Assembly (NCBI GenBank): GCA_017854655.1
Contig: JAFMHF010000007.1
Coordinates: 1-47,922 of the forward strand
Source of the DNA: Puniceicoccaceae bacterium
GTDB taxonomy: Bacteria; Verrucomicrobiota; Verrucomicrobiia; Opitutales; Coraliomargaritaceae
Reading direction: 5' to 3'
Length of the DNA: 47,922 nt
The position numbers and the translations under genes were made by a program. Below, piece after piece: positions 4,963 to 40,150 of the stretch. Under the pieces are notes generated by a model. That model worked only from the letters and a program-made list of their open reading frames with translations. It did not search any database and was not told the origin of the DNA. How positions within the stretch are numbered: position 1 is the stretch's first letter; each line of letters begins with the position of its first letter.

Positions 4963-5187
4963 ATGCGTTTAGATCAAATTAAGAAAGACGGAACTTTTCG
5001 AGTCACGAAAGTGAACTGCGAGAACGAGAGCGTCGCCCGATTGATGGCGATGGGCTTGTTGCCGGGGCAAGAGGTTCGCCTCACGCACGAAGCACCGTTG
5101 GGCGACCCGATCGCAGTGGTCTTTCAGGGCTGCCATATGAGTCTACGCTTAAAAGACGCAGCCGAGGTCGAAGTGGAGAAGATTTAG
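4963..5187 (+). CDS. feoA: FeoA, SH3-like ferrous iron transport accessory protein
   Basis: 74 residues from the ATG at 4963 (MRLDQIKKDGTF). A longer frame from a TTG at 4933 would put the Fur-box palindrome inside the gene and add residues not seen in the family, so the ATG is preferred. The FeoA core is clear: 'ARLMAMGLLPGQEVRL' (26-41), 'APLGDPIAVVFQG' (44-56), then 'MSLRLKDAAEVEVE'. FeoA is a small cytoplasmic SH3-like protein that works with FeoB in ferrous iron import. The feoB ATG follows after a single base, so the pair is surely co-transcribed. Confidence 0.93.
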   Translation: MRLDQIKKDGTFRVTKVNCENESVARLMAMGLLPGQEVRLTHEAPLGDPIAVVFQGCHMSLRLKDAAEVEVEKI

Positions 5188-8380: not shown

Positions 8381-8396
8381 TAGCGAAGTATCGCTA
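8381..8396. terminator. Hairpin between convergent genes
   Basis: TAGCGA-AGTA-TCGCTA (six-pair stem) overlaps the stop codon of the minus-strand DUF1080 gene and follows the plus-strand GAF gene by about 110 bases. On the plus strand TTTCTGCTT follows. It may end transcription from both sides, but the T-run is weak. The rest of 8272-8380 shows nothing recognisable. Confidence 0.4.
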
Positions 8397-9548
8397 TTTC
8401 TGCTTCAACCAGCCCAGCCCATCAGCAATCTCACGAAGCTCCTTTGCGGGCTTGTAATCTGCGGCAATGATGTCGAAACGCTGTAAGTAAGACAGTGCGT
8501 GGTGCAAGTCCATGACTTGCTGGCGCTGTATCTCCAGTTCCTTAGTGGAAAGATCCTTAAATTGCTCTACTGATTCTGAGACTTGTCGATTGCATACATC
8601 CCATGCTGCGGAATTGCTAGCATACATCTGAGACTCGAGTAAGCGCATCATTTGATCCCAGCCTTGCATATTGGCCGCGCTGGCACGCACCTCTGCTCCG
8701 ATCTCCGCGCGCTTGGCAGTCGTTGCCGCTGCGGAAAGTCGACCATCGGTGCCACCGTCTGCAGGACGCGGGCGTAGTGGTCGAAGCCAAATATTACGAT
8801 AGCGCACAGGGTTGCCGTGGTCTTGCAGCGCAACTGGCCCCACATCTGGATACGGTTGATTCAGCGGCTTGCGCTTTTTATGGCCACCACCACCATCCAG
8901 CGGCGTGCTGTCCTGTACCACAACGCCATTAACGAGGACAGTCATCGAGCCTTCATCAAGCGACACGCCATCGCGCACGATCGGACGACGGTAAATAATA
9001 TCATAGCTCTGCCATTGGCCCGGTGCCCGCAGCGCATTGACCGCCGGCGGCATGACTCCATAAACGGCACCTGCCGAGCCATCCGGATAAGTGGGGTTAT
9101 TAAAATTATCGAGCACTTGCACTTCGATGCCGCCCGGTAAGAACACACCGCTATTGCCACGCTTCTGCCCCTCTCCAGGCAGCTGCTGCGCATGCGACCA
9201 TTCGATGTGCAACTGGCAATCGCTAAACTGCTCTTTAGTCTGAATATATCCGGCGCCGCGGACAGCTAACAGATAGCCATCTTGCACGACCCAATCGGCT
9301 TTGCGCTTCTCTTCGGGCCTGGCATGCACCCAATTTCCAAACGATTCCTCAGTGCCATCAAACAGCACTACCGCATCCGAGGGCGCTCCACCCACGACCG
9401 CAGCTGGCTCGACCCGAGGTGGCTGCGGCCGGTTCTCGTCGTGCACTGCCCATGGATGATTGGCGTCTGGTGCAGCGCCATAAAAAGCTGCATCTAATGA
9501 ACTGGCCAGACAAGCAGCTGCGAAAAGAGTGAGTGAGCAAGGTTTCAT
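8394..9548 (-). CDS. DUF1080 (3-keto-disaccharide hydrolase family) secreted protein
   Basis: 384 residues with a signal peptide (1-20, cleavage near LDAAF). The DUF1080 beta-sandwich runs about 58-258: 'VVLFDGTEESFGNW' (60-73), 'GNSGVFLPGGIEVQVLD', 'GPVALQDHGNPVRYRNIWLR'. Members are concanavalin-like folds named in Pfam for 3-keto-disaccharide hydrolysis. Residues ~265-384 are a predicted helical extension without a family I recognise. It is the last gene of the long minus-strand operon, 30 bases after the ThuA-DUF1080 gene, so it likely acts on the same oxidised sugar in the periplasm. Exact substrate and bond cleaved are unknown. Confidence 0.87.
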   Translation of the reverse strand: MKPCSLTLFAAACLASSLDAAFYGAAPDANHPWAVHDENRPQPPRVEPAAVVGGAPSDAVVLFDGTEESFGNWVHARPEEKRKADWVVQDGYLLAVRGAGYIQTKEQFSDCQLHIEWSHAQQLPGEGQKRGNSGVFLPGGIEVQVLDNFNNPTYPDGSAGAVYGVMPPAVNALRAPGQWQSYDIIYRRPIVRDGVSLDEGSMTVLVNGVVVQDSTPLDGGGGHKKRKPLNQPYPDVGPVALQDHGNPVRYRNIWLRPLRPRPADGGTDGRLSAAATTAKRAEIGAEVRASAANMQGWDQMMRLLESQMYASNSAAWDVCNRQVSESVEQFKDLSTKELEIQRQQVMDLHHALSYLQRFDIIAADYKPAKELREIADGLGWLKQK

Positions 9549-9578
9549 GTTTTAGATAACTTTTAGGGATAAAGAAAA

Positions 9579-11147
9579 TTACTTAATTTCGCGGATGCGG
9601 ATATTGCGCCATTCGATTTCGACACCAGCCACCTTATGCGAATGTACTTGCAGGCCGATCAAACCGCTAGGGAATTGTTGGTAGCTTTCAGGGTCATTCA
9701 AATCCGCGATTTGTTTACCGTTGATCCATGTTTGAATAATCGCTCCTTTTGCTAATACACGATAGTGGTTCCACTTGTCATTTTTAAACACGCTGTGCGC
9801 GTTGACTTTGGAATCTTTCGACTGTGGCTCTGGTGAACGCCAGCCACTGTAAGCCTCGCCATAAATATAACCGGACTGCCCGGGGCTGTGCTCGATCTCA
9901 ACTTGCGGCCCTTGCACGTGGCCTTTCGCGACGTCATCGTTCTGCAAGGAACGGATCTGCACGCCGGAGTTGATTACGCCGCACTTCACCTCAAATTCGA
10001 GCTCGAAATCGCCGTAGGTTTTGTTGGTGCAAAGAAAAGAATTGGGGCTCTTTAATACCGAACGTCCCACGATCACACCGTCGCGCACTTCATAGGTGGC
10101 GGTGCCATTATTCTGCGTCCAACCATTCAAGGTCTCACCGTCAAACAGCGACTGCCAGTGCTCACTACCACAGCAAGCATCAACATTCGGCATCTTAAGC
10201 TTGGCGCTCGGAGTGACATCAGCCTTAAGGTCGCCACAGGCAAATTGAATGCCTGCGAGGTAGTGCTTCAACATCAGTGGGTTGGAATAAATCTCATGGT
10301 TGTGCCCGAGACTCGAGTAAAACACGCGGCCCTTGCCAATCCCCTGTACCCAAGACACCGCATAATCGCCGTCCGTTCTGCGGAGTGGCATTCTCTCATG
10401 CGGCGGATCGCTACGCTCGACATCTATGCTCAACAAGATGCGGAGCTTCTCACGTGAATATGGCTCATCCTTGAACTGGTAGATCTCATCTTTGATGCGG
10501 AAGTCGGACTGCCCGCCAAACACTGGCTGTAGCAGTGCGTGCTCGGGCTCTTCGACATTGATGGTCACCGTGTGGCCCGCCATCCATGGGTGGCCGTTGA
10601 AATAAGCGCCCATCACATCGCCGTAGGCCTTATGCTTGTAACAAGAATCGGTGGCAGAGTGGATACCAACCAGTCCCCCGCCCTGCTCCACGTATGCGAG
10701 CAAATTATCCACCAAGCGATTGTGCCGGGCCTGTAACCACGCCCAATCTTCCTTTGAAAATTCCTTACGTTGCTTGCCGGGCGGCATGAAGAAATCCTGC
10801 GTTGGACTGAGCAGCACCACCGCATCGAAGTCGTTCAGCGCTTCTGCTTCGAAGTTGGCGGGATCGTCGCTGACGATTGCTTGGTAGGCACCAGTGGCTG
10901 CACCGAGTCGCTCTAAAGCTAGTTTACCTGTAGGAATCGAGGCATGACGATAACCTGCGGTGGCGCTGTAAACCAGGACACGACGCGCTGCTTCTGGAGC
11001 AATAATTGCAGTTTGCGGAAGCGCAGCTTCGATCGCCCGCAGATGATGCGGCGCAACAGGCTTGTCGTTAAAGGTCGGCACCCAAGTGGACGCCGCACTG
11101 AGTGAGCACGCCAACAAAAGCGAAGAAAGGTAAGCAGAAGTATTCAT
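9579..11147 (-). CDS. ThuA-DUF1080 fusion protein, secreted
   Basis: 522 residues from the ATG at 11147, which gives a signal peptide (MNTSAYLSSLLLACSLSAAS). The same frame stays open upstream to 11420, but that part overlaps tatA and is not coding-like. Residues ~45-270 are ThuA (trehalose-utilisation family, glutamine-amidotransferase-like fold): 'RRVLVYSATAGYRHASIP', 'FDAVVLLSPTQDF', 'GGGLVGIHSATDSCY', 'GRVFYSSLGHNHEIY'. Residues ~300-522 are DUF1080: 'WQSLFDGETLNGWTQNNG', 'NSGVQIRS', ending 'VEIEWRNIRIREIK'. ThuA proteins take part in 3-keto-disaccharide catabolism, so joining both domains suggests consecutive steps on one oxidised glycoside (inference). It sits 76 bases after tatA and 30 before the second DUF1080 gene. 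Confidence 0.9.
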   Translation of the reverse strand: MNTSAYLSSLLLACSLSAASTWVPTFNDKPVAPHHLRAIEAALPQTAIIAPEAARRVLVYSATAGYRHASIPTGKLALERLGAATGAYQAIVSDDPANFEAEALNDFDAVVLLSPTQDFFMPPGKQRKEFSKEDWAWLQARHNRLVDNLLAYVEQGGGLVGIHSATDSCYKHKAYGDVMGAYFNGHPWMAGHTVTINVEEPEHALLQPVFGGQSDFRIKDEIYQFKDEPYSREKLRILLSIDVERSDPPHERMPLRRTDGDYAVSWVQGIGKGRVFYSSLGHNHEIYSNPLMLKHYLAGIQFACGDLKADVTPSAKLKMPNVDACCGSEHWQSLFDGETLNGWTQNNGTATYEVRDGVIVGRSVLKSPNSFLCTNKTYGDFELEFEVKCGVINSGVQIRSLQNDDVAKGHVQGPQVEIEHSPGQSGYIYGEAYSGWRSPEPQSKDSKVNAHSVFKNDKWNHYRVLAKGAIIQTWINGKQIADLNDPESYQQFPSGLIGLQVHSHKVAGVEIEWRNIRIREIK

Positions 11148-11223
11148 TTTTGGGAGAAGTCGAACAGCGGTTGAAAAACAAGCCTGCCCCAGATGTTCAG
11201 CAGAGGCAGACTCAATTAACAAA

Positions 11224-11472
11224 CTAGGCTTCGGATGTCGGTTCGAGCGGCTTGCTCTTAACTGGCTTCGACTCAGCATCGATATCGACATCCATCGCCG
11301 AGCGAATGTCTTGTTCGATACCGGACGTGGCTTTCTTAAATTCGCGGATCGATTTGCCAGCTGAGCGAAAAAGATCAGGCATGCGCTTTGCCCCGAAAAA
11401 GAGCAAGACGACCGCCCCAATCATTAGGATCTCGGGCGTATTCAGATTTTGGATAAATGCGAGTGGTGTCAT
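11224..11472 (-). CDS. tatA: TatA/TatE-type twin-arginine translocase subunit
   Basis: 82 residues. Short periplasmic N-terminus, one membrane helix (about 12-27, 'TPEILMIGAVVLLFFGAKRM'), then the amphipathic helix with the family pattern F-G-A-K-R-M-P-D-L-F-R-S-A-G-K-S-I-R-E-F-K-K-A (26-48) and an acidic/Lys tail. TatA forms the pore for export of folded proteins bearing SRRxFLK signals. No tatB or tatC is nearby. It lies between the HEAT-repeat gene (49 bases upstream) and the ThuA-DUF1080 gene (76 bases downstream), inside an operon that codes a Tat-signal oxidoreductase, so it may raise export capacity for this pathway. Confidence 0.92.
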   Translation of the reverse strand: MTPLAFIQNLNTPEILMIGAVVLLFFGAKRMPDLFRSAGKSIREFKKATSGIEQDIRSAMDVDIDAESKPVKSKPLEPTSEA

Positions 11473-11521
11473 ATTGATAAATTTTACTTACTGTTTTCTA
11501 GTGATCGGCTGCATTGCATAC

Positions 11522-13453
11522 TTATAGCTTGCGGGTAATCTGCTTCACCAGATCGCCGACCTGCGGATCATTTTCGACGACCTTCAAACGCTGTGTCACC
11601 AATCGACGCTTATGTGCGACCGAGAAATGCTTCGCGGGATTTTCATACACGCTCAATAAATCACGCTTATACTCTAGCGGTAGATCTGCCTGGACAATTG
11701 TTACGAGCAAATCAGCTTGCGCTGCGTAAAATGGGTGCGAACGGTGAGTGAGTCGCTTTTTTAAGCTACGTGCGGCATCACTGCGCTCTTTGTCCGTGGC
11801 GGACTCAGCACTCGCAATCGCGACCCACAAGTCACCATCATCGAGTGTTTCTTGCAGAGGCCAGCGCTGCAACGCGCTGATTGCCGCAGGGCGCAGAGCT
11901 GAATCGTTATCCGCAAAGATTCCCTGTAAATAAGCCACCACTAACTTCGATGCTACGCTATCTAGGATTTCAATGACTGCTTGGCGGGCCGCGTCATTGT
12001 CGGCCGATTCAAGCGTCGGATAATAGAGTTCGCTCCATTGATACTCTGGAGCGCCGAAGTTTGCCGACAGTCGCTTCAAGCTACGCTGAGCCTCACGAGA
12101 TTGAGCATTACCTGCAGTGGCAATATTTAGTAAACTTTGGATACTTGCAGCATTACCAATCGATTCGAGTGACTTAAACGCCGCCTGCTTTAATTTGACA
12201 TCTGCCGGGCCAGAGATGATCCCGTTGAGCAATGCAGTCGCTCCAGATATATTACGAAGCTCTAATACTTTGATCGAAGCGATACGCGACGCGTTATCGG
12301 CACCGCTCTCCACAGTCGCCAAGGCTTTTTGATCAGCCGCCGGCGCCTGCAGACGCGCCAAGGCATTTGCTGCATTCATATCTTTGCTGTTGGCGGAAAA
12401 AGCCTGATAGAGCGGCTCAAAGCTCGCATCGCCGCCGACATTCCCCAACGCATGGATGATACAAGCATTTAGGACCCCCTCCGCGTTCGGTAGCAAGGTC
12501 AGCAATTCCGTTTCGTAAGCGGCCAGGCTTTGTTCACCGATCGCGGTGACGATCACCACCTGATCATTCACGCTGGCACCTGGGAGATGGGCAACAACAA
12601 CTGCACACAAAGGAGCTGAACCACTGGCCAAAGCTGCCTGAATAAACAACACACGTCCGGGAAAGTCTGGCTTAACCAAGACCACTTCCAGCACTTGCTT
12701 GGCACGCTTCGAATCACTCGCTGCCAACTGCTTAAACGCGCCTGCACGAATGACGCCGCTCACGCCAGTACCTGCGAGAGTATAGGCCGTGTTGGCATCG
12801 ACCCCGACCTGAAGAAGCGCCATTTCGATCAACGCCTTGGTTTCGTCACTGGTACTGTTGCGTGCGTTCAAAAGCGCAGGCACCACGGCGTCATTGCCGA
12901 GTTTGCCCAAAGCTAAAGCTGAGGCAGCCTGCAGCGCGGGATTTGAAGACTGCAATAGTTCAGCGATCGCAGGTGCGGCATCGACCGCGCCACGAGTGGC
13001 GAGCGCATCCATGTAAGCGGCACGGTCTACCTCGAAGCCCTGAGTCAGAGCCGCAAGCAAATAAGCTTCCGCCTTCGCGCCAGGTATCGCAACAAGTGCG
13101 CGACGAGCGCTATCACGCACATTCGGTTCGCTATCGCCAAGCAGCGCATAGGCTGCATCAGCTCCCGCATCAGTGCCGAACAGTTCCAACATACGAATCA
13201 AATACAGACGTCCAGCAAGCGGTAAGCCTTCGGCACCGAGTTGCGCAATCACGTCTGCCTCAAGAGCCAGGCGCTCAGCAGCAACCGCACTGGGAGCCGT
13301 GGCCTCAGCAAAGGCTTGCTTGAGATCCAAACGTGCCTGCATACGTGCCGCATAGTCATCGCCTCCAAGCGTATTGACGACACTCGGCACATCCACGGCA
13401 AAGACTAAGGACGCTGCGCAAGCGGCGAAGAGAGATAAAACTGTTTTTTTCAT
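11522..13453 (-). CDS. Secreted HEAT-repeat protein
   Basis: 643 residues from the ATG at 13453, which gives a clean signal peptide (MKKTVLSLFAACAASLVFA). An alternative ATG at 13477 overlaps the stop of the preceding gene as ATGA and would add eight residues; the open frame continuing to 13684 overlaps that gene fully and is rejected. Nearly the whole mature protein consists of alternating helices of HEAT/Armadillo type, e.g. 'AAPAIAELLQSSNPALQAAS', 'ALALGKLGNDAVVPALLNA'. It has no catalytic motif. Such repeats make protein-protein scaffolds, and co-transcription with exported sugar enzymes suggests it holds a periplasmic complex; that is inference. Confidence 0.85.
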   Translation of the reverse strand: MKKTVLSLFAACAASLVFAVDVPSVVNTLGGDDYAARMQARLDLKQAFAEATAPSAVAAERLALEADVIAQLGAEGLPLAGRLYLIRMLELFGTDAGADAAYALLGDSEPNVRDSARRALVAIPGAKAEAYLLAALTQGFEVDRAAYMDALATRGAVDAAPAIAELLQSSNPALQAASALALGKLGNDAVVPALLNARNSTSDETKALIEMALLQVGVDANTAYTLAGTGVSGVIRAGAFKQLAASDSKRAKQVLEVVLVKPDFPGRVLFIQAALASGSAPLCAVVVAHLPGASVNDQVVIVTAIGEQSLAAYETELLTLLPNAEGVLNACIIHALGNVGGDASFEPLYQAFSANSKDMNAANALARLQAPAADQKALATVESGADNASRIASIKVLELRNISGATALLNGIISGPADVKLKQAAFKSLESIGNAASIQSLLNIATAGNAQSREAQRSLKRLSANFGAPEYQWSELYYPTLESADNDAARQAVIEILDSVASKLVVAYLQGIFADNDSALRPAAISALQRWPLQETLDDGDLWVAIASAESATDKERSDAARSLKKRLTHRSHPFYAAQADLLVTIVQADLPLEYKRDLLSVYENPAKHFSVAHKRRLVTQRLKVVENDPQVGDLVKQITRKL

Positions 13454-13473
13454 TTCTGGTAAATTCAAAGGGT

Positions 13474-14760
13474 TCATGCGGGGAGTTCGTAGCCTGCCCG
13501 GCGTGGACGGTCCTGCCAGCGTTGGGCGTCCGCATCGCCGACTATTTGCTCTGCCACGGGGTCCCATTGGATCGGACGGTTCAAGCGCTCGGCGATTCCA
13601 GCCAATTGGCAAATAGTGGCGGTACGATGGCCGATCGTCGCCGGGCAAATGGTTTTTTTGCGAGAATGGATTCCATCCAGCCAATTGCGCTTGTGATCGA
13701 CCGACCGGTAGAGTTGCACATCCGATGGACTCAGCGGGCGACTGACCAAATCAGCAGGTGTGCTTTCGATCTTTTCCGCTCGGCTCACGCAGACTTCGCC
13801 CTCGGTGCCGATAAAACGAATCATGTGTCCCTTGCGGTTCGGATGGTCGCGAATGACTCTGACGCCGTCATCGTATTCATACGATGCATACTTCTCCCCA
13901 TTGTATCCCTTAGGAGTAAATTTAACCGGGCCCGAATCATCGCGCCCGAGTGCCCATTGAGTGATATCGAAATGGTGCGCACCCCAGTCGCCGTTTTTAC
14001 GGGAACCGTATTCCCAGAAGCGGCGCCAACCGCCACTGTAACTACCTTGCACACGCGCTGCGGTGTAAGGCTCGTAAGGTGTCGGCCCCAGCCACTTGTC
14101 GTAATTAAAACCTACGGGAATCGGCTCTTCCGCACCCAGCACTGCCGGCGGGAAGCCCCCCAAACTAGCATACACTTCTTTGATCTGGCCAATCCAGCCA
14201 TTGCGCACGATTTCGGCCGCCTTGCGAAATGCATTGCTGGAACGCTGCTGCGAGCCAACCTGAAGAATCGTGCCATAGCGCGCTTCCGCAGCCACCATCG
14301 CTTTGCCCTCTTCAATCGTCAGCGTCATCGGCTTTTCGACATAGACATCCTTACCCGCACGCATCGCGGCAATCGCGATCGCCGCATGCCAGTGGTCAGG
14401 GGTCACAATAAATACCGCATCCACTGCGGGATCATTAATGACGTCCTCATAATCCGGTGTCGCCACAACATCTTTGAAGTTCCAAGCCGACATCTTTTGC
14501 TTAGCAGCTGCCAACTTGTCTGGCTTTACATCGCAGACGTAAAGCGGCTGCACATCCGGATGATGGACAATACCCATGTGCGCACCCATCATGCCGCCCA
14601 TACCGATGAAGCCCATATTGATGCGACCGTTCGGCCCGACGCGACCATTCAGACCGAGCGTCTCAGCGCGAAGAATCATTGGAGCGGCATACAACGATGC
14701 GCCTAAAACCGCGCCCTGTTTCAGGAAATGGCGACGTGAGGACTGAGTATTTTTTTTCAT
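13474..14760 (-). CDS. Gfo/Idh/MocA-family oxidoreductase with Tat signal
   Basis: 428 residues. Twin-arginine signal: SRRHFLK (8-14) followed by a hydrophobic stretch ending near 'MILRAET' (about 34). Nucleotide-binding fold with '[13 protein letters not shown]' (49-61), '[15 protein letters not shown]' (119-133) and the conserved E-K-P (142-144). Known relatives oxidise sugars or inositols with NAD(P); exported ones need tightly held cofactor, as in glucose-fructose oxidoreductase. It is followed by the HEAT gene (stop and possible start overlap) and preceded by the isomerase gene by 28 bases. Likely role: oxidising a glycoside, possibly to a 3-keto form, in the periplasm (inference from operon partners). 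Confidence 0.92.
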
Positions 14761-14788
14761 TAAATAATATAAAGTATGTTACTACGGC

Positions 14789-15823
14789 TTACTGCTTTTC
14801 TTGATCAAACGCCGCATCGAAGGCGACGTTGCTCGGTGCGAAGTCTAAGCTACGCGTAAAGCGGCAGGCCTCGGCTCCACCGTGAAAACGATCCATACGA
14901 GAATCTTCCCACTCGATCGACAGCGGTCCGTTGTAGGCTACGTCATTGAGTGCGACGATGACTTCCTCGAAATTAATATCGCCACGCCCTGGCGAACGAA
15001 AATCCCAATAGCGACGTGCGTCTCCAAAGTCAGTATGACCACCAAAGACACCGACGTCACCATTGCCGTGCCCCCACCATGCGTCCTTAACGTGCGCATG
15101 AAAGATATAAGCCCCGAAGTCGCGAATGAATTTCACGTAGTCCACACCTTGATAACCGAGGTGACTCGGGTCGTAGTTAAATCCGAAACGTGGGTGATGG
15201 TTGATCGCCTCAAGTGCTGTGGCGGCGCTGGCAATATCAAAGGCAATTTCAGTCGGGTGTACTTCGAGCGCAAAATACACATCCTCCTGCTCAAACACGT
15301 CGAGAATCGGCGTCCAACGATCGGCAAAGTCTTGAAAACCGGCCTCGATTTGACCGGGCACGATTGGCGGAAAAGAATACAACAGATGCCAAATCGACGA
15401 ACCAGTAAAACCATTGACCACCACACGCTCGGGCGCACCACCTGGTTTGGCATCGAAGAACTTGCGCGCCGCACGAGCGGTATCCTGCATTTCTTTGGCT
15501 GCGCGCTGACGCACACCTTCGGGCTCGCCGTCGCCGTAGATTTCAGGAGATAGGATCGCCGCGTGACGCGCGTCGATGCGATCGCAGACTGCTTGGCCGA
15601 CCAGGTGACTGGAAATCGCGTAGCAGGTCAGGCCATTGGCCTCCAACAGCTCCCATTTCTTGGCGATATAGTCCGGCTCTTTGAGCGCGGCCTGCACGTC
15701 GAAATGGTCGCCCCAACAGGCGAGTTCGACACCGTCGAAGCCCATCTCTTTAACTTTGGGTGCCAGTTCGGCGAGTGAAAGATCGGCCCATTGACCGGTG
15801 AAAAGTGTAACAGGACGTGACAT
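14789..15823 (-). CDS. Sugar phosphate isomerase/epimerase-family TIM barrel
   Basis: 344 residues from the ATG at 15823 ([12 protein letters not shown]); an open frame further upstream to 15985 overlaps the ankyrin gene and is not coding. The xylose-isomerase-like barrel has the expected metal ligands: Glu187 (ALEVHPTE), Asp218 (NYDPSHL), His242/244 (FHAHVKD) and Glu304 or 306 (SIEWED). No signal peptide, so it acts in the cytoplasm. Members of this superfamily isomerise or epimerise keto sugars, and some cleave 3-keto-glycosides by elimination. Placement between two Gfo/Idh/MocA genes fits further conversion of an oxidised sugar. Substrate not assignable. Confidence 0.88.
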
Positions 15824-15830
15824 AGTTAAT

Positions 15831-15858
15831 ATTGTTGGTTGGAAGTTGTTAGTTGGAA
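15831..15858 (-). repeat. 14-bp tandem repeat forming the leader of the isomerase gene
   Basis: On the minus strand TTCCAACTAACAAC is followed by TTCCAACCAACAAT, eight bases before the ATG at 15823. The first unit covers the ankyrin stop codon. The core CTTCCAACCAACAA is found again, also just before an ATG, at 22836-22849 on the plus strand. Confidence 0.55.
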
Positions 15859-16493
15859 GGTTGCAGCAAATGGATCGCGGCCGCGTTGTTGTTGGCTTGA
15901 GCAATGGATAGAGCGGTCTCGCCATTGACTGCGTTGACAGAAGGATCGACACCGGAATCGAGCAAAAGTTGCACCATCTCGGCACTGCCGCTGGCAGCTG
16001 CTTCGTGCAGAGGCGTGCCGCCGCGCTCGCTCAGTGCTTTAGGATTGGCGCCGCCGTCGATTAGGACTTTGGCAATCGCCAGTCGGTCTTTTGCTGCGGC
16101 ATTGTGCAGCGGCGTCCAACCGGCTTTGTCCCATTCGTCGGGCTTTGCATTGGCTTTGAGCAGTGCAATCGCGACTTTCGGCAGATCGCGATCGACGCAA
16201 AGATGTAGCGGTGTGCGCTTGCTGGAATCGGGTTGATTCACGTCCGCGCCAGATTTGACCAGCACAAGTGCGATCTCATCCTTCTTACGCAAAATAGACT
16301 GATTAAGCGGTGAGAGCTTCGGATGCTCACCTTTCATCGCACGCTCAGGATGCGCTGCGAGTTGCAGTTGCACTTCCGCTAGATCACCCCGCGCAATTGC
16401 TTGGTCGATACTACTATATTGCGATACTCCAGCGCAGAGCAACGGAGCAGCCAGTGACAGAGACAGAGACAAATACAGAATAAATCGATGCAT
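15849..16493 (-). CDS. Secreted ankyrin-repeat protein
   Basis: 214 residues from the ATG at 16493 (a GTG one codon upstream is possible). Signal peptide '[21 protein letters not shown]'. Then about five ankyrin repeats: '[19 protein letters not shown]', '[20 protein letters not shown]', '[20 protein letters not shown]', '[20 protein letters not shown]', '[20 protein letters not shown]'. A binding scaffold with no catalytic residues. It is five bases after the preceding Gfo/Idh/MocA gene and 25 before the isomerase gene, so it is firmly inside the operon; together with the HEAT protein it makes two exported solenoid proteins in one catabolic operon. Confidence 0.9.
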
Positions 16494-16501
16494 CACTTAT
16501 T

Positions 16502-17683
16502 TTAATCAAGTACTGTCCACTTGCCATCCTGAGCACTCGAGGCAACAGCCGCTTCAATGAAAGCTAGACCGATACGGCCATCTTCGACAGTGGCATATTT
16601 GGAGCCATCGGCGTTGACAGTTTCCTCGGCATTGTAAGCGCGCACATCACATTCAAAGTCACGGTGTAAGCGTGCCAGTGCATCGTGGAAGCCTTCACCA
16701 TGACCTGATGGCAGCGTCGGCTGGCTCATCAAATCATCCGGCAGTTCACCCAGAAAACCATCATTGGCAGTGACCTCGCCGCGCCAGTAAATGCGATCTG
16801 GTTGCCCCGGTAGCATCACCTTCACGGCTTCTGAGTCTTCTTGGCGCCAGACTAGCGTGCCGAGGCTGCCATTCACTTCGATGCTCAGGTCGTTCTTATG
16901 ACCGATACAAATTTGCGAAGCGCGCACCAGTGCTTTGGCGCCATTGGACAGTTCACAATAAGTGGTGAAGTGATCATCTAGCGAGCGACCTTCGACCATC
17001 GATTCTAAACGCGCTGAAACCTTCGATACGTTCAAGCCCGTCACATAGCGCAACTGCATCAACGCATGCGTGCCAATGTCACCGCCACAATTTGAAGCAC
17101 CGGTCTTGTTCGGATCCGCACGCCACTCGGCTTGCTGAACACCCTGCTCTTCAGCCTTTCCCGCGAGCCAGCCTTGAATGTAGGACGAGTCCACCCAGCG
17201 CACGTCTCCGATCAAACCGCTTTGCACGATATGTCGCGCCAAGCGAGTACTCCAATGGCCGAGGTAGGTATGCGCCACTGCAAATGGAACCTTCGACTCT
17301 TCAACGACAGCAGCAAGTTGCCGCGCCTCGGCATGATTCAATGTTAGCGGTTTTTCACAGAAGACTGGAATCCCCGCCTTGATTGCTTTCAGCGAAGGCG
17401 CGAAATGCGCATGATTAGGCGTTACCACCACCACGTAGTCTAGTCGCTCAGCTACGGGTAATGCTTCTTGCGCTTCAATCATGTCGTCGTAGCTCGCGTA
17501 TCCCTTGATTGGATACGGCCAGTTCGCAGCATCTTCGAGAGCCGATTGTGGATTACTTCGAAGTGCAGCTGCCACCACGCGACGCGTGCCATCAAAGTGA
17601 ATGGCTTTCTGATGCGGATGTGCAAAGAAGGCACCACCGCCGCCGCCGATGAGACCGACATTGAGTGTTCTTGGAGATGACAT
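16502..17683 (-). CDS. Gfo/Idh/MocA-family oxidoreductase, cytoplasmic
   Basis: 393 residues. No signal sequence: the Rossmann fold starts almost at once with 'NVGLIGGGGGAFFAHPH' (8-24). 'VVVVTPNHAHFAPSLKAI' (84-101), E-K-P (110-112) and a C-terminal beta-sheet domain containing 'GGDIGTHALMQLRYVTG' complete the family. It is the only one of five such proteins here without a Tat signal, so it should work with free NAD(P) in the cytoplasm, perhaps reducing or oxidising the imported keto sugar. It is 12 bases after the MFS transporter gene and five before the ankyrin gene. Confidence 0.92.
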   Translation of the reverse strand: MSSPRTLNVGLIGGGGGAFFAHPHQKAIHFDGTRRVVAAALRSNPQSALEDAANWPYPIKGYASYDDMIEAQEALPVAERLDYVVVVTPNHAHFAPSLKAIKAGIPVFCEKPLTLNHAEARQLAAVVEESKVPFAVAHTYLGHWSTRLARHIVQSGLIGDVRWVDSSYIQGWLAGKAEEQGVQQAEWRADPNKTGASNCGGDIGTHALMQLRYVTGLNVSKVSARLESMVEGRSLDDHFTTYCELSNGAKALVRASQICIGHKNDLSIEVNGSLGTLVWRQEDSEAVKVMLPGQPDRIYWRGEVTANDGFLGELPDDLMSQPTLPSGHGEGFHDALARLHRDFECDVRAYNAEETVNADGSKYATVEDGRIGLAFIEAAVASSAQDGKWTVLD

Positions 17684-17695
17684 AGTGAGGCGTAT

Positions 17696-19270
17696 TTAAA
17701 ATGCGGTTTCTTCGTCAGAATGGGTGCCACCAAGAACCTTCGGCTTGTAGCCGCCCTGGCCCTTGAAGTAGAGAATCAGACCGATATAGCAGACCAGCAT
17801 AAAGGCCGGGAACATGCACATCTTAGCCAGTGCACCCTGCGTCTCACGCTCTTGAATATTAGTGACCTGTACCTGCTCTTCTACTGTCAAATCAGCAAGC
17901 GCATCACTATTTAGCGCGGTGTATTGTCCAAGCAGATAATCGCTCTCTTGCGTGACTTGTTCGTAGGCAACTGGCAGTTCTACTTGAATCGCGGAAGTTA
18001 CCGAGCTTTCCTGCAAGTAACCGATAAAGGGACCACCCAAGATACCGACACTGAGCATGCCGATGCCAGCAATCGCATTCAGCGTCAGCGCCCCACCCTT
18101 TGGTGTTTGCTCGGCGACCACACCGAGCATGGTTGGCCAAAAGTAGGTTTTAGAGACACCGTAGATAGTTGCAGCAAAGAAGATAAAACCAACCGCAGTC
18201 GCAAACGACAGCAGGTACAAACCAACAATGGCCAGCGCAGAGCACATCGCCAATAGGCCAAGCGGACCAAACTTATTGATAACTGGGCCGGCATTAAAAC
18301 GCAGCACCATCATAATCACCGAAGTGTAAACCAGCACCCAGGTCGGATCCCAACCAGCGGCGTGCATTGGTTTTTCCATCAGAGCGGAAATCCAGCCGTC
18401 GGTGCCAAGCTCTGTCGTCGCCAATGGCATCATGATCACCACCAACACCAACAGCAGTGGGTTACCCAAAGAACGGCCATAGAATGCAAAACCAAGAACC
18501 GACACAGCGATCAAGCCCCATGTCATACCAGCGGACCAGGCGAACACGCTGCCCAACTGCGAGAAGATCAGATAGAATGCGATGAACGCACCAGCAGTAC
18601 CCAACTCAGCCAACATTTCGCGGTAACTCGAACCTGCAGCCACACGCTCATTCACAGGAAATTCGACCTTGGCAAGCATTACCAAGTAGACGAACGCAGG
18701 CAGAAACATAAGACCAATCAAGATACGCCAATCATTTGCAACCACGCCACTGAGGCCGATTGCTAACACACCACCGAGCACCAGACCACCGGGCCAGCCA
18801 GCATGCAGGATGTTCAACCACTTTGATTTCTCATCCTTGAAAAGTGTCGCGACCACCGGATTGATAAAGGCTTCAACCGTACCATTACCAAGCCCAAGAA
18901 TTACCGAGCCCCAGTAAAGATAGTTCCAAGCCTTGGCCTGCGCGATGGCGAGATCAGCAACTTCACCGTTGACGATGCCGTAGGCCATTACCGCGAGCGC
19001 ACCAAAAATCGCATAACAGACAAAACTGAAATACATCGCAAATTTGTAGCCGACTCGGTCAATAATTAAACTGAACAAAATGATACTGATTGCAAAGGGC
19101 CAGATGCCCGCGCCAAACAGCACACCGGACTGCACCTTATCGAGACCGAACTGCTCCGGCCAGATGCCACTGTTAATCAAGATTGCCCGAATAATAAAGG
19201 CCATCGAGGTGGTAATCAGGGCAATAAAAGAGCCCCAGAATACGGTGCTGTCATTTTTACTATGTTTCAT
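17696..19270 (-). CDS. Major facilitator superfamily transporter
   Basis: 524 residues with about 12 membrane helices, the first at about 11-35 and the last near 490-512. Features include 'DRVGYKFAMYFSF' (the loop 2-3 region), 'GLGNGTVEAFINPVVATLF' and 'WLNILHAGWPGGLVLGG', similar to sugar-permease-like MFS proteins. A loop of about 75 residues near 410-485 separates the last two helices, longer than usual. As the second gene of the operon, 33 bases after the PAS-AraC gene, it probably imports the sugar or keto sugar produced outside. Specificity unknown. Confidence 0.9.
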   Translation of the reverse strand: MKHSKNDSTVFWGSFIALITTSMAFIIRAILINSGIWPEQFGLDKVQSGVLFGAGIWPFAISIILFSLIIDRVGYKFAMYFSFVCYAIFGALAVMAYGIVNGEVADLAIAQAKAWNYLYWGSVILGLGNGTVEAFINPVVATLFKDEKSKWLNILHAGWPGGLVLGGVLAIGLSGVVANDWRILIGLMFLPAFVYLVMLAKVEFPVNERVAAGSSYREMLAELGTAGAFIAFYLIFSQLGSVFAWSAGMTWGLIAVSVLGFAFYGRSLGNPLLLVLVVIMMPLATTELGTDGWISALMEKPMHAAGWDPTWVLVYTSVIMMVLRFNAGPVINKFGPLGLLAMCSALAIVGLYLLSFATAVGFIFFAATIYGVSKTYFWPTMLGVVAEQTPKGGALTLNAIAGIGMLSVGILGGPFIGYLQESSVTSAIQVELPVAYEQVTQESDYLLGQYTALNSDALADLTVEEQVQVTNIQERETQGALAKMCMFPAFMLVCYIGLILYFKGQGGYKPKVLGGTHSDEETAF

Positions 19271-19303
19271 ATGTTTTTTTGGGTTGATCGGGATAAATAA
19301 ATA

Positions 19304-20125
19304 TTAGATATGAGCACGTAAAACCATCGAAGTCTTACGCTGATTACGAGGAGCAGCCGCTTCACTAAAGCTGCGGCGATACTTGAGCGGCGTGATCTTC
19401 AGCTCCTGTCGGAAGGCACGCGTCATATTTGTTTGATCATTGAAGCCGCATTGAACTGCGATTTCCGCAAGACCAACAGCGGTTTCGCGCAACATCTTGC
19501 ACGCAGCATTCAGGCGCGTACGCCTTAGATACATCAAGGGAGTGAGGCCGAAGGTTTTTTTAAATAAACGCTCTTGAGAGCTAACCGAAATCCCGCCCAC
19601 TTCGGCAATCCCTGCAACTGATAATTTTTCTCGATAGTGTGCGCGCACATGGTTGACGATTCGGCGCATTTCCGGATGTTCCGCATACACCGTATCAGAG
19701 TCACGAATCATGCGAGCGACACCAGCCAAACCAATCACCGCATCGTCGTTATCAAACAGCGGAACCTTAGTCGTGCACAACCAGTCGAGCGAACCATCGG
19801 CAGAAGGCACCAACTCGATCTGATTATGAATCGCCTGCCCCGTACGAATGACGCGTTGGTCATCCGCATAGAATCCATCTGCCAAGAAATCGGGGCTATA
19901 ATCATAATCCGTTTTACCGATCATCTTCTCGATCGATTGCTCACCGAGCGTCTGCGCAAAACTTCGCCCGCCGCCCATAAAACGACTCTCGCGATCCTTC
20001 ACAAAGAAAAACGCTCCGGGCACGCAATCAAACAAAGACTCCATCATCTGCCCGGGACGCAAAGTCTGAAAAAAAGACTCTTGCAGAGAATGGGGTATAT
20101 ATTCGTCTTGGAAATACTGTACCAT
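19304..20125 (-). CDS. PAS-AraC transcriptional regulator
   Basis: 273 residues. A PAS sensor (about 28-140: 'FFFVKDRESRFMGGGRSFAQ', 'IGKTDYDYSPDF', 'DNDDAVIGLAGVARMIRDS') is followed by an AraC-type DNA-binding domain (about 150-253) with two helix-turn-helix units; 'GFNDQTNMTRAFRQELKITP' is the second HTH signature. It is first in the long minus-strand operon and divergent from the DoxX-like gene across 658 AT-rich bases, so it probably controls one or both units. It is a clear paralogue of the regulator at 41133 with the same domain order. Confidence 0.92.
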   Translation of the reverse strand: MVQYFQDEYIPHSLQESFFQTLRPGQMMESLFDCVPGAFFFVKDRESRFMGGGRSFAQTLGEQSIEKMIGKTDYDYSPDFLADGFYADDQRVIRTGQAIHNQIELVPSADGSLDWLCTTKVPLFDNDDAVIGLAGVARMIRDSDTVYAEHPEMRRIVNHVRAHYREKLSVAGIAEVGGISVSSQERLFKKTFGLTPLMYLRRTRLNAACKMLRETAVGLAEIAVQCGFNDQTNMTRAFRQELKITPLKYRRSFSEAAAPRNQRKTSMVLRAHI

Positions 20126-20783: not shown

Positions 20784-21302
20784 ATGGCCTCCAAAGATAA
20801 ATACTCCAACGACCTCGGGCTCACACTCGGCATGCTCACGCTCCGCATTTGGCTTGGTTGCCGCGCGATCTTAACTGGGATTGAGAAATATGCCGGCACC
20901 AACAGCAGCGACAAAGATGTCCTCATTGATGGCGTGCCCAATAGCTACGGACTCACTGATACAGTCACAGGCAAGGTTTACTCGCTCAGTAACTACCACG
21001 GGGTGCCAGTTCCGCTTTACGAAAAGTTCAGCAACGAGCCACTGATCCCGACTTGGGGGCTCAACCTTTACGACACGATCCTCGGCCCCGCTCTAATCCT
21101 CCTCGGTCTTGGCGTATTACTGGGCATTGCGCAACGCATCTCATTATTTGCGATGGGCTTAGTCTACACTAGCCTCACCTTCGGTCTGATCCTAATTAAT
21201 CAGAGCTCCGGCGTCGCCTGGCTTGGTGTGCATATTATTATGGTCGTGATGGCACTGGCACTCGCAAAGCACAATCGCTTCGCAGTCCTCAAAAAATGGT
21301 AA
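20784..21302 (+). CDS. DoxX-like integral membrane protein
   Basis: 172 residues with four predicted membrane helices (about 14-33, 97-116, 118-138, 143-163). 'LRIWLGCRAILTGIEKYAG' (19-37) is the N-terminal pattern of DoxX-like proteins, and a loop of about 55 residues after helix 1 carries 'NYHGVPVPLYEKF'. The family is linked to membrane redox processes but its biochemistry is poorly known. It lies 19 bases before a Tat-exported oxidoreductase and heads the plus-strand cluster, so it may pass electrons or anchor that enzyme (inference). Confidence 0.72.
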   Translation: MASKDKYSNDLGLTLGMLTLRIWLGCRAILTGIEKYAGTNSSDKDVLIDGVPNSYGLTDTVTGKVYSLSNYHGVPVPLYEKFSNEPLIPTWGLNLYDTILGPALILLGLGVLLGIAQRISLFAMGLVYTSLTFGLILINQSSGVAWLGVHIIMVVMALALAKHNRFAVLKKW

Positions 21303-21321
21303 CCCCAGCCAAGACTTTAGC

Positions 21322-22701
21322 ATGAATTTAAAACTCCCAGCTCTTTCTCGACGTGACTTCCTCGCCAAGTCCACCCTCGGCGCAGGCTTGGTGCTTGGTG
21401 CGCCCTCGATTTTACGTGCCAAACAAGCAGGCGCTCCCGCCGACGACATCCGCGTGGGCTTCATCGGTTGCGGCAAGCAACACGAAGTGCTGTTTAACGC
21501 GATGGTCAACATCCCAGGCATTCGCTACGTCGCCGCCTGCGATATCATGAAAGCCCGCGTCGGTCGGACCTTTTCTACCATCAAGTCGCGCTTCGACACC
21601 AACATCAACCGCTACCTCGATGCCGAGGAGATGCTCGAAAAAGAAGAGCTCGATGCGGTATTTGTTGCTACACCCGACTTCTGGCACGCTCCACACACCA
21701 TCATGGCGCTCGAAGCCGGCTGCGATGTGTATTGCGAAAAGATGATGTCTAACACCCTCGAAGGCGCGCGCAGTATCGTCGCCGCAATGGATCGCACTGG
21801 TAAACTTTGTCAAATCGGCCACCAGCGCCGCAGTAATCCACGCTACCGCTACACGCTGGATCAGCTCATTCAAAAAGAAAAAATTTGCGGTCAAATCGTT
21901 AACATTAACGGCCAGTGGAATCGCGCACTTAGCTCATCGCAGGACATCGTATCCAAGCCATCGATTCTGCCAGACGCTGAAACACTCCGAAAGGCCGGCT
22001 TCAATCTGGGCGCGGATCACGAACTGTCACTCGACGAACTGCGCCATCGTTTTTTGAATTGGCGCTTTTACACCGCGCTCTCAGGTGGACCAATCTCCGA
22101 CCTAGGCGCCCACCAAATCGACATTTTCAATTGGTACCTTGGCTGCCAGCCAACTTCGCTAATGGCATCCGGAGGTCGCAGCTACTTCAAAGATCGTGAG
22201 CATTTCGACAATGTCATGTGCATCTTCGACTATGATACCCCACAAGGTAATGTACGCGCATTTTACCAAGTATTGACCACCACTAGTTCTGGCGGTGGTT
22301 ATTACGAGTCCTTCATGGGCGCCGAAGGTACCATCAACATTTCTGAGCGCGAAGCCTACACCAAGATTTACAAAGAGTCGGGAGCCGATAGCGCTAAATG
22401 GGATAATCTGGTGAGCCGCGGTCTCCTCAAGAAAGAAGCCGCTGGCAAAGCCGCGGGTGGCGCTGATGCCATCGCCTCTTACGAGTCGGCTCCACCTGAC
22501 GAATATGCACTGCCTGGCGGCCTAAGCAAAGCACCGCACCAGCCGCATATCGAGAATTTCTTGGACACCATTCGTGGCAATGCTAAGCTGACTTGTGATG
22601 CACGCCATGCCCTCGAATCCGAGGCGCCCATCTATTGGGTCAATCACGCAGCCAACACCCGAGAAACCATTCATTTCACCGACGAACACCTACACACTTA
22701 G
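21322..22701 (+). CDS. Gfo/Idh/MocA-family oxidoreductase with Tat signal and EKM variant motif
   Basis: 459 residues. Tat signal SRRDFLAK (9-16) with a hydrophobic stretch to 'APSILRAKQ' (about 35). Nucleotide-binding 'VGFIGCGKQHEV' (45-56), 'VFVATPDFWHAPHTIMAL' (113-130). Where the family normally has E-K-P it reads C-E-K-M-M (138-142): the Lys is kept but the Pro is replaced. The C-terminal domain contains 'GGPISDLGAHQIDIFNWYLG' with the usual catalytic-side His. It should act outside the cytoplasm with bound NAD(P). It follows the DoxX-like gene by 19 bases and is followed by a 14-bp tandem repeat array. Confidence 0.92.
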   Translation: MNLKLPALSRRDFLAKSTLGAGLVLGAPSILRAKQAGAPADDIRVGFIGCGKQHEVLFNAMVNIPGIRYVAACDIMKARVGRTFSTIKSRFDTNINRYLDAEEMLEKEELDAVFVATPDFWHAPHTIMALEAGCDVYCEKMMSNTLEGARSIVAAMDRTGKLCQIGHQRRSNPRYRYTLDQLIQKEKICGQIVNINGQWNRALSSSQDIVSKPSILPDAETLRKAGFNLGADHELSLDELRHRFLNWRFYTALSGGPISDLGAHQIDIFNWYLGCQPTSLMASGGRSYFKDREHFDNVMCIFDYDTPQGNVRAFYQVLTTTSSGGGYYESFMGAEGTINISEREAYTKIYKESGADSAKWDNLVSRGLLKKEAAGKAAGGADAIASYESAPPDEYALPGGLSKAPHQPHIENFLDTIRGNAKLTCDARHALESEAPIYWVNHAANTRETIHFTDEHLHT

Positions 22702-22702
22702 A

Positions 22703-22800
22703 GAAACTTGAGAGCTGAAACTTGAGAGCTGAAACTTGAGAGCTGAAACTTGAGAGCTGAAACTTAAGAGCTGAAACTTGAGAGCTGAAACTTGAGAATA
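22703..22800 (+). repeat. 14-bp tandem repeat array, seven units
   Basis: GAAACTTGAGAGCT is repeated at 22703, 22717, 22731, 22745, 22759 (one change, CTTAAG), 22773 and 22787 (end changed to AATA). It begins two bases after the oxidoreductase stop codon. A small hairpin GCAGTG-ATTT-CACTGC follows at 22805-22820, then TTTCAACCAACCAC/TTCCAACCAACAAC (22823-22850) as another two-unit 14-bp repeat just before the next ATG. Slippage could vary the spacing between the two genes. Confidence 0.9.
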
Positions 22801-22856
22801 GAGAGCAGTGATTTCACTGCACTTTCAACCAACCACTTCCAACCAACAACAATACC

Positions 22857-23555
<699 letters not shown>

Positions 23556-23664
23556 GCACCGCATTTAGATTGTAGCATCAAATGCGCATGCAACATATGG
23601 TTTTCTTACTTCATTTGTCCCCTCAACATGGGACAGACTATACGAGCGAAATCAGATAGAATTG

Positions 23665-26600: not shown

Positions 26601-26892
26601 CCGGCTCTTCAACGACGTTGCCGGTTCATGGCAGGAGACTCTGTCGGCCCGACTCACACGTGGCTTTTTGCTAACCACAGGTCGCAGCCCGATCGAATCG
26701 GAACTGGAGCATTGGGAAAGCTTCAGTAACGAAAGCCTCGAACGCTTCAACCTCACACCCGAGGATGCTGCTGCGTTTCTCAGCTACGGCGAAAAAACCA
26801 AAGACCCAAAAATTCCGGAAGTCGAACTCGCCGCCCTTAGCTTCAGCATGTCGGCCCTACTCAACTTGGATGAAACCCTAACCCGAGACTAG
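23665..26892 (+). CDS. Cytochrome-type DUF1549/DUF1553 lipoprotein
   Basis: 1075 residues from the ATG at 23665; the ATG at 23692 would also give the full lipoprotein signal (lipobox LTAAC). Planctomycete-type cytochrome domain with haem motif CFACH (76-80) and a later 'EKMPPPAAKK' supplying the axial Met; then DUF1549 (about 175-380, 'LVRMDLTG'-type pattern 'YMDLTGLPPSPEAI', 'ERLATDWLDAARYGDT', 'LACARCHDHKFDPISQ' with a second CxxCH); an inserted beta-rich region (about 490-640); then DUF1553 (about 740-1040, 'NRLGLAQWLVADSHPLTARF'). The family is abundant in Planctomycetes and Verrucomicrobia near sulfatases and sugar enzymes, with unproven function. DUF1501 follows nine bases later, the usual pairing. 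Confidence 0.92.
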   Translation: MTMTTQSESMISVWINKSWHVTAACACLLTAACSSEKASQAGEQSEANDPHQRSLLALPEEVSFNTHVRPILSDRCFACHGPDVDNQASPFRLDSQEASRLNLANDGEVARYGIVPGKPDESLLLSRILHADPNEKMPPPAAKKKGVSDDEVAILRQWILNGAEYEKHWAFVPATKPNLPAVKQTAWIKNELDHFVLAKLENRQISPAPEADKETLIRRVYMDLTGLPPSPEAISAFVGNESPAAFEAMVDEVLASPHYGERLATDWLDAARYGDTNASHVDMMRTSWPWRDWVINAFNQNMPYSQFIIEQLAGDLLPDPTDAQKVATSFNRNHPITNEGGVIPEEYLIEYAVDRVSTMGSAMMGLTLACARCHDHKFDPISQDDFYSFMSFFNNIPERGLEAQQEFRAYAYPPFITVYSDEQKMTRASADAVLQEVATLKKLKGKNAVKIPANEYAVQWQALTLDSAHSDQKKLAPLVSIKSQKQLRNNANNKITQISDSKKIVLRADIGLDAALTLGFKVPGTPFNTIRVEASPKEMGKLFHPDQSENIISEIEVKLRNGDSTQTLELISGYSSLPSGPETGITQALDNNPSSAWNQGLHSDEHHFFLQLKEPVTAAQGELLVRFRYVGNQTQGKFNNDLVVYAGNTPHDLDNAVALIPVKDRLAWHQDALLIDSLNQAGQTKLTAIDYFRAKVQMAHLKMTAARCMVMEEKKDIQPTYVLDRGLYDQPLKDRPRERVTPPVFDPMPEDAPKNRLGLAQWLVADSHPLTARFAVNRFWQQLFQHGIVKTSEDFGLQSDPPSHPDLLDYLAVDFQENQWDVKRLMKMMVMSATYRQASTVREELKEIDPDNSLLARAPRYRFPAEVIRDNGLSASGLLVTTIGGPSVKPYQPDGLWREKSMRRDINTGIFQRDSGDKLYRRGMYTFWKQASPPPQMELFDAPSREACVMKRRITSTPLQALMLMNDETYLEMSRELATRLFNDVAGSWQETLSARLTRGFLLTTGRSPIESELEHWESFSNESLERFNLTPEDAAAFLSYGEKTKDPKIPEVELAALSFSMSALLNLDETLTRD

Positions 26893-26901
26893 CCCTGCCC
26901 G

Positions 26902-33730: not shown

Positions 33731-33773
33731 AGAATATCTATTAATATGTGACCTTAATGACGCTGAGAAAATT

Positions 33774-33793
33774 GCGGGATAAACCCGCTCGCT
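33774..33793. repeat. REP-like hairpin copy
   Basis: GCGGG-ATAAA-CCCGC followed by TCGCT; differs by one base from the first unit of the array at 7452. It lies 44 bases upstream of the sulfatase start. Confidence 0.6.
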
Positions 33794-33884
33794 TCTAGAA
33801 ATTGTAGTGACTGGCTTTATGCCAGGAACATATCAAACTGCATTGAAAGTTGATATCATACCGCAATGAAATGTGCGCAATGAA

Positions 33885-33924
33885 AATAAAAAAAAGCCGC
33901 ATACCCAACAAAGTGCATACGGCT
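33885..33924 (-). terminator. Rho-independent terminator after the sulfatase-oxidoreductase pair
   Basis: On the minus strand AGCCGTATGC and GTATGCGGCT pair (ten pairs with two G-T) around a ten-base loop, followed by TTTTTTTTATTTT. It begins 19 bases after the stop codon of the Gfo/Idh/MocA gene ending at 33943, a textbook position. Confidence 0.85.
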
Positions 33925-40145: not shown

Positions 40146-40150
40146 AGTAA

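Follow-up and report, generated by a model that had tools for sequence, protein, structure and literature searches.

A ten-gene operon of a Puniceicoccaceae bacterium predicted to encode a two-compartment glycoside catabolic route with exported solenoid proteins

Predicted pathway

The window analyzed here is a 47,922-nucleotide stretch of DNA (contig JAFMHF010000007.1, assembly GCA_017854655.1) from an uncultured Puniceicoccaceae bacterium of the phylum Verrucomicrobiota. Its minus strand carries ten adjacent genes, running from 20125 down to 8394, which we read as an operon for a catabolic route of the oxidation, elimination, hydration and reduction type. The route would be spread over two compartments, with repeat-solenoid proteins as partners of the enzymes, and this reading is given a probability of about two in three. 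By homology, the reaction order appears to be that of a known glycoside route. The new elements are a HEAT-repeat gene that follows one dehydrogenase clade, the fusion of both solenoid families to ThuA (four HEAT and ten ankyrin proteins), and a second TatA gene.

We infer the reactions, the localizations, the channeling and the role of TatA from sequence. A Gfo/Idh/MocA (Gfo) dehydrogenase exported by the twin-arginine translocation (Tat) system, GFOt, would oxidize C3 of a glycoside outside the cytoplasm. A DUF1080 protein and a ThuA-DUF1080 fusion would split the weakened glycosidic bond there, and a major facilitator superfamily (MFS) permease would bring the keto-sugar in. The TIM-barrel protein Iso may hydrate or otherwise convert the imported keto-sugar, and a cytoplasmic Gfo protein, GFOc, would then reduce the product to an ordinary hexose. 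HEAT, predicted to be exported, would partner GFOt and ThuA, and the exported ankyrin protein would partner ThuA. These solenoids would most likely tether the enzymes to one another, and labile keto-glycosides would thereby be handed on. A 3-keto-C-glycoside isomerizes spontaneously (PMC10628242), and channeling would therefore be rewarded. The extra TatA may aid the export of GFOt through the ordinary TatC of the cell.

Conservation of the gene set

Gene content, conservation and adjacency were observed directly, as were the fusions in relatives. Neighborhoods were mapped from HEAT and ThuA-DUF1080 searches of 109 related genomes, of which 43 belong to the same family (the window's genome included); genomes, loci and contigs are labeled G, L and C. 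The contigs are fragmentary. An operon of this type was counted by hand as ThuA with at least two of the regulator, MFS, GFOc, ankyrin, Iso and TatA genes nearby, and the per-gene counts leave out operons truncated by a contig end at the gene in question.

Fifteen such loci were found in 15 of the 43 family genomes, including 10 of the genus's 12 genomes. A chance run of ten genes is excluded by the related operons in 14 other family genomes, and because the order is conserved in relatives, the gene set is more than chance. The MFS gene was present in 13 of 13 resolvable operons, in one at just 37% identity. The regulator stood in the same place in 12 of 13 (one at a contig end), with a fragment in the thirteenth. 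GFOc was present in 12/14 and Iso in 12/15, where it is split into two pieces in G021. ThuA occurred in all 15 operons, fused to DUF1080 in 10, unfused in four and cut in one. The sequence-only reading had expected the enzymes, the scaffolds and TatA to be kept together in Verrucomicrobiota; the neighborhood search showed a co-occurrence that is conserved and not strict (ankyrin 13/14, TatA 11/15, HEAT 7/14 and in each of these seven after GFOt).

Further ThuA loci of the family were smaller, for example ThuA-GFOt-HEAT (L043, L047) and ThuA-GFO3-DUF1080 (L097, L098), in which GFO3 is a different Tat-type Gfo protein. Four loci of other families hold similar sets in different gene orders. L368 carries the regulator, MFS, ankyrin, ThuA, DUF1080, GFOt and HEAT genes, and L375 carries DUF1080, ankyrin, GFOt, HEAT, Iso, GFOc, a weak ThuA match and MFS. 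L377 resembles L375 minus MFS in its visible part, which stops at a contig end, and L376 has DUF1080, GFOt, HEAT (by profile), a weak ThuA match and MFS. By Iso, the closest named record was Opitutia bacterium UBA5964 at 98%, the records of the window's own genome possibly being excluded.

Adjacency of HEAT and GFOt

The HEAT protein had 27 matches in the relatives. Besides the window's own, 22 were mapped, of which 20 had an adjacent Gfo gene and two started at the sequence end. A Gfo gene also adjoins HEAT in G103, G073 and G088; the G065 match was left out of the neighbor count. Class-wide, 47 HEAT matches were found in 37 of 384 genomes. In each of the 30 class loci examined, a GFOt relative was located directly upstream of HEAT and on the HEAT strand; these loci include the window and several genomes from the 109-relative set, and three of the GFOt relatives had only 32-36% identity. 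As a control, GFOt relatives of at least 100 bits were found in 4 of 80 loci, within 893 kb of far flank from genomes other than those of the HEAT loci. We therefore rejected the view of HEAT as a general solenoid with random neighbors. In the PDB, HEAT had 12 weak matches, mostly designed alphaRep proteins.

The converse search with GFOt gave 38 matches in the relatives, and 30 loci were mapped. HEAT adjoins all 18 mapped copies at 59% identity or more. Among the 12 mapped copies of lower identity, a HEAT match was present beside five, one of these weak and on the other side, and two copies adjoin an exported protein of about 340 residues. Eight further lower-identity copies were left out of the mapping.

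Fusions of ThuA with solenoid domains

The class-wide ThuA search, with an ankyrin-ThuA fusion as query, gave 40 matches, spread over 39 of 384 genomes. Its four longest ThuA frames were ThuA-HEAT proteins, two of which also carry F5/8 type C domains, and three of the four genes directly adjoin a Gfo gene with a Tat-like start (two of these Gfo checked with Pfam). Two ankyrin-ThuA fusion proteins were found, in G042 and G041, both of one genus. The class-wide ankyrin search gave 26 matches in 24 of 365 genomes. When nine of its long open reading frames (ORFs) were scanned, eight were ThuA-ankyrin proteins of the opposite domain order, six in one family and two in another. The two orders imply at least two fusion events. 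A pathway gene was fused or within about 1.5 kb for 20 of the 26 ankyrin matches. Counting the window's own ThuA-DUF1080 fusion, ThuA appears to be the hub of these links.

An apparent ankyrin-GFOt fusion in L401 was dropped, as its ankyrin part shifts frame internally. The ankyrin genes beside GFOt in L401 and L404 (G411) each match as two differently framed pieces, in both genes at the same place in the ankyrin domain.

The fusions can also be viewed from the substrate side. The pathway would be the same, and the HEAT and ankyrin proteins would attach to the glycan or to the cell surface, delivering substrate to the enzymes instead of joining the enzymes to one another, a role that we consider unlikely. 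The F5/8 type C domain is a common sugar-binding fold, and its presence in two of four ThuA-HEAT fusions agrees with such a role. However, Pfam showed no carbohydrate-binding domain in the HEAT and ankyrin proteins of the window, and the tracking of one dehydrogenase clade by HEAT is a better fit to a protein partner.

The dehydrogenase slot

In the 14 resolvable family operons, the dehydrogenase position was occupied by GFOt with HEAT in seven and by GFO3 in eight, both forms being present in G005. Two GFO3 proteins were compared with the NCBIfam model BT_2158_fam and scored 295 and 285 bits, aligned over nearly the whole length. The same model was the best NCBIfam match of GFOt, whose best PDB matches were 8tdf and 8tdh. 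No HEAT match at E 1e-10 was found in the GFO3-form genomes G003, G004, G007, G011 (84% complete) and G023. G027 and G041 carry the GFO3 form in the operon and a separate ThuA-GFOt-HEAT locus elsewhere (L043, L047).

G010 retains the 60 C-terminal residues of GFO3, at 90% identity, between ThuA and GFOt (L045 7452-7631). This remnant directly before GFOt-HEAT is a replacement scar and shows that GFOt-HEAT replaced GFO3 in the same slot, and the replacement supports equivalent roles for the two forms.

The cytoplasmic pair

Iso gave one match per genome in 70 of the 109 relatives at E 1e-90 (on two contigs in G011). In named genomes, the best 80 of at least 592 Iso loci were used, drawn among others from Verrucomicrobiota, Planctomycetota, Deinococcota, Fimbriimonadales and Proteobacteria. 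Of these 80, 52 (a lower bound, given that some loci are short) have a GFOc relative scoring 100 bits or more within 2.5 kb of Iso, always on the Iso strand. The rest of the flanks (893 kb) held such a relative in one of the 80. In the window, the ankyrin gene alone parts Iso and GFOc.

Iso matched PDB 8ro4, deposited as a 2-hydroxy-3-keto-glucal hydratase, at E 4.6e-29. Its residues E187, D218, H244 and E304 are common to 8ro4 and invariant in 14 sequences, and we take them to be the metal site of the TIM-barrel superfamily. The 8ro4 match, together with an Agrobacterium operon that joins a hydratase with a Gfo reductase, suggests that Iso and GFOc act in hydration and reduction. The sequence-only reading had named Iso an isomerase; the 8ro4 homology and the GFOc pairing make a hydratase, or another keto-sugar enzyme, with a cytoplasmic reductase the better call.

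The solved structure nearest to Iso, PDB 2zds, aligns along its length with the Iso TIM-barrel enzyme and yet is titled 'Putative DNA-binding protein'. At L199 (G041:C152), an Iso gene outside the operon directly adjoins a DUF1080 gene and a regulator gene resembling the window's.

Another oxidized carbon source, such as inositols, sugar acids or anhydrosugars, with ThuA and DUF1080 acting on other keto-intermediates, is a shade less likely than substrate-side solenoids. It draws on sub-cut-off matches of both Gfo proteins to inositol, levoglucosan and xylose dehydrogenase models and of Iso to inosose dehydratase. Against these stand the rank of BT_2158 among the GFOt matches, the closer BT2158-like enzyme in the slot of sister operons, and the presence of two DUF1080 domains and ThuA.

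The second TatA

The operon TatA scored 58.3 bits with TIGR01411, above the cut-off of 53.9. Two TatA matches and a single TatC were found in the genome, each on its own contig, and the other TatA, on contig C81, rules out the operon copy as the sole TatA. Of the 109 relatives, 72 had one TatA match, 17 had two or three and 20 had none. The other TatA was constantly set beside rpoD- and dnaG-like ORFs (identified by eye) in eight family contigs, including C81. Operon-borne TatA was present in eleven family genomes, and three extra family copies were outside the operon, in G013, G020 and one in G027. The two TatA matches of G041 may represent a single gene split across contig ends. Another family also has second copies, in four of its genomes. 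A tree of 33 TatA rows grouped the genus's nine operon copies in one clade (94/81) and placed the two operon copies of another genus apart on long branches. A single origin of all eleven is thus not shown.

These data bear on a further explanation, the least probable of the alternatives considered, in which HEAT would help GFOt to mature or to retain its cofactor and TatA would be a passenger. In line with such a factor, HEAT follows GFOt and is lacking in GFO3-only operons, and the operons that lack TatA agree with a passenger. However, HEAT has a Sec-type start and would therefore encounter GFOt only once export is complete, ThuA fusions with HEAT repeats also occur, and the single clade of the genus argues against a passenger TatA.

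Comparison with known systems

The keto-glycoside cluster BT2156-BT2160 of Bacteroides thetaiotaomicron likewise combines an exported Gfo/Idh/MocA glycoside 3-dehydrogenase with a DUF1080 protein. BT2158 is described as a periplasmic glycoside 3-dehydrogenase (PMC11300592) and BT2157 as a 3-ketotrehalose hydrolase (PMC9007349). Both were dispensable for raffinose-type sugars (PMC11501099), so substrate ranges should not be assumed. A trait of the BT2158 type is seen in the window, where two DUF1080 proteins above the Pfam cut-off, with Sec-type N-termini, lie in the same cluster. The window differs in that GFOt is outside the BT_2158 equivalog and in having ThuA fused to DUF1080, exported HEAT and ankyrin proteins, TatA and an MFS permease.

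DUF1080 has been tied to 3-ketotrehalose and 3'-ketolactose (PMC9007349), and elimination, hydration, reduction and a Bacteroides lyase have been described (PMC13273386). Cleavage by DUF1080, proposed earlier for the window, is backed by homology and may be elimination instead of hydrolysis. PMC10628242 describes a four-enzyme glycoside operon of Agrobacterium tumefaciens, which includes a hydratase plus a Gfo reductase and shares the hydratase-like TIM barrel, the Gfo reductase and the reaction order with the window. Its first steps use GlycDH and the TIM-barrel eliminase AtOGE, whereas the window has Gfo/Idh/MocA and DUF1080. No second, AtOGE-type TIM barrel was present, as Pfam shows just one TIM barrel among the ten genes. 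The lactose route of Caulobacter (PMC9007349) has periplasmic oxidation by LacABC followed by DUF1080, with epimerases, a reductase and a transporter nearby. Pfam on the ten proteins gave nothing LacABC-dehydrogenase-like (LacABC itself was not searched).

A search of the open literature gave nothing on ThuA with DUF1080, or on ThuA with Gfo in Verrucomicrobiota, most subscription papers being outside it. By titles and abstract starts, no paper on the pathway was found for HEAT, ankyrin or TatA with ThuA, DUF1080, Gfo or PVC. As only listings were used and most subscription papers lay outside the search, these negatives are weak evidence of novelty.

Strength of the proposed pathway

The extracytoplasmic oxidation and cleavage of a 3-keto-glycoside route and the import of its product, as proposed from the sequence, are carried only by homology and predicted localization. 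The term self-contained was too strong because TatC and the other TatA are encoded elsewhere and the operon has no electron acceptor.

Several results weigh against the proposed pathway and the role of its solenoids. GFOt scored 120 bits with BT_2158_fam, far below its cut-off of 750, and GFO3 is likewise under this cut-off, so that the C3 chemistry is not established. No electron acceptor for an exported NAD(P) enzyme is encoded in the operon. Iso resembles 8ro4 only distantly and is far closer to PDB 2zds (E 1.6e-109), which has no assigned sugar function; the hydratase role of Iso is therefore not proven. GFOt and HEAT are missing from 7 of 14 resolvable family operons and TatA from 4 of 15, and a strict need of the operon for HEAT or TatA was not supported. 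In G003, all that is left of TatA is its first 13 residues, joined to the start of ThuA (L092 ~5019-5060), a deletion scar which indicates that TatA is old in the operon but can be lost. Five of the 12 mapped lower-identity GFOt copies had no HEAT neighbor. The 40 matches of the class-wide ThuA search were all to the ThuA half, with no further ankyrin-ThuA fusion among them. The ThuA of the eight ThuA-ankyrin fusions is distant (Pfam 50-72 bits vs 141 for that of the window), and no pathway neighbor or fusion was detected for 6 of the 26 ankyrin relatives. Adjacency and fusion indicate functional linkage, not a physical complex. A scaffolded extracytoplasmic complex, in which HEAT and ankyrin dock GFOt and the ThuA and DUF1080 proteins, with channeling, a dedicated second TatA and a class-wide rule of solenoids with ThuA, is possible and rather doubtful.

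Operon layout

The coordinates and predicted functions of the ten genes are listed in Table 1. Pfam bore out the named domain content of all ten. The nine intergenic gaps, computed from the likeliest ATG starts as picked by us, are 33, 12, 8, 25, 28, 20, 49, 76 and 30 bases in gene order. The single direction read earlier was correct (the minus strand), and of its gap range of 5 to 76 bases the minimum becomes 8; the value of 5 stems from a GTG start of the ankyrin gene. The ORF-list frames of HEAT and ThuA-DUF1080 begin too early, with likely starts at 13453 and 11147. Promoter- and terminator-like sites (14 and 14) were not above shuffles (10.8 and 12.9), and we infer one transcript for the ten genes from gene spacing only.

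Table 1. Genes of the operon in order, with predicted functions
Gene	Coordinates	Strand	Predicted function	Basis
PAS_4 + AraC-type regulator	19304..20125	-	Regulator, first gene	Pfam PAS_4, HTH_18
MFS transporter	17696..19270	-	Proposed sugar-product importer	Pfam MFS_1
GFOc	16502..17683	-	Cytoplasmic Gfo/Idh/MocA, proposed 3-keto-sugar reductase	Pfam, no evident leader
Ankyrin solenoid	15849..16493	-	Predicted exported	Pfam Ank, Sec-type N-terminus
Iso	14789..15823	-	AP_endonuc_2 TIM barrel, proposed 2-hydroxy-3-keto-glucal hydratase	Pfam, PDB
GFOt	13474..14760	-	Tat-type Gfo/Idh/MocA + C2 domain, proposed glycoside 3-dehydrogenase	Pfam, twin-arginine signal
HEAT-repeat solenoid	11522..13453	-	Predicted exported, proposed GFOt partner	Pfam HEAT_2
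TatA	11224..11472	-	Second copy of the genome	Pfam TatA_B_E 61.6 bits, TIGR01411
ThuA-DUF1080 fusion	9579..11147	-	Predicted exported	Pfam ThuA + 3keto-disac_hyd
DUF1080 protein	8394..9548	-	Predicted exported, proposed 3-keto-glycoside lyase/hydrolase	Pfam 3keto-disac_hyd

Localization was predicted from N-terminal hydropathy and motifs only, without SignalP. GFOt has the twin-arginine motif SRRHFL at its N-terminus, and GFOc runs straight into the Rossmann fold. Their N-terminal hydropathy is similar (1.62 for GFOt and 1.46 for GFOc), so the motif and not hydropathy tells the two apart. Sec-type hydrophobic N-termini were found on the ankyrin, HEAT, ThuA-DUF1080 and DUF1080 proteins and not on the TIM barrel. 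The DUF1080 protein matches PDB 4qhz (E 3.2e-48), and the DUF1080 half of the fusion matches 4jqt. NCBIfam gave no match at 0.001 for HEAT, ThuA-DUF1080, DUF1080 or MFS, and an Rfam scan of the window found one tRNA. The genome (2.3 Mb, 141 contigs, 91.5% complete) has ten DUF1080 domain matches.

Genes upstream of the operon

Divergent genes at 20784-23555 encode a second Tat-type Gfo, an F5/8 C protein and a membrane protein that looks DoxX-like by eye and has no Pfam match. These also adjoin the regulator in G002 (L104), UBA5964 (L219) and G422 of another family (L368), and were not found in the available sequence upstream of the regulator in L041, L091, L096 and L101. After the divergent Gfo, 23662-32273 holds PSCyt1, PSCyt2, PSD1, DUF1501 and F5/8 C proteins of the Planctomycetes-Verrucomicrobia-Chlamydiae (PVC) type, which are possible electron acceptors. 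The PSCyt cytochrome genes were rejected as a constant electron partner, as they were not found upstream in G422. A second carbohydrate cluster at 32315-42332 contains two sulfatases, a BT2158-like Gfo (279 bits), another Gfo, two ThuA genes and a PAS_4-AraC regulator. Its TIM barrel is nearest to D-psicose 3-epimerase (133 bits, cut-off 300).

Implications

To our knowledge, ThuA has no settled function, and the exported HEAT and ankyrin proteins of the phylum are mostly unassigned. Through the fusions and the 30/30 adjacency, ThuA, HEAT and ankyrin are linked to a single pathway and a single dehydrogenase clade, and all three thereby become directly testable. The swap of GFOt-HEAT and a BT2158-like enzyme in one slot provides a natural test of the purpose of HEAT. 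If the proposed pathway is true, non-hydrolytic glycoside breakdown would reach the Verrucomicrobiota in a two-compartment layout, and the operon would be an example of the physical organization of an extracytoplasmic pathway.

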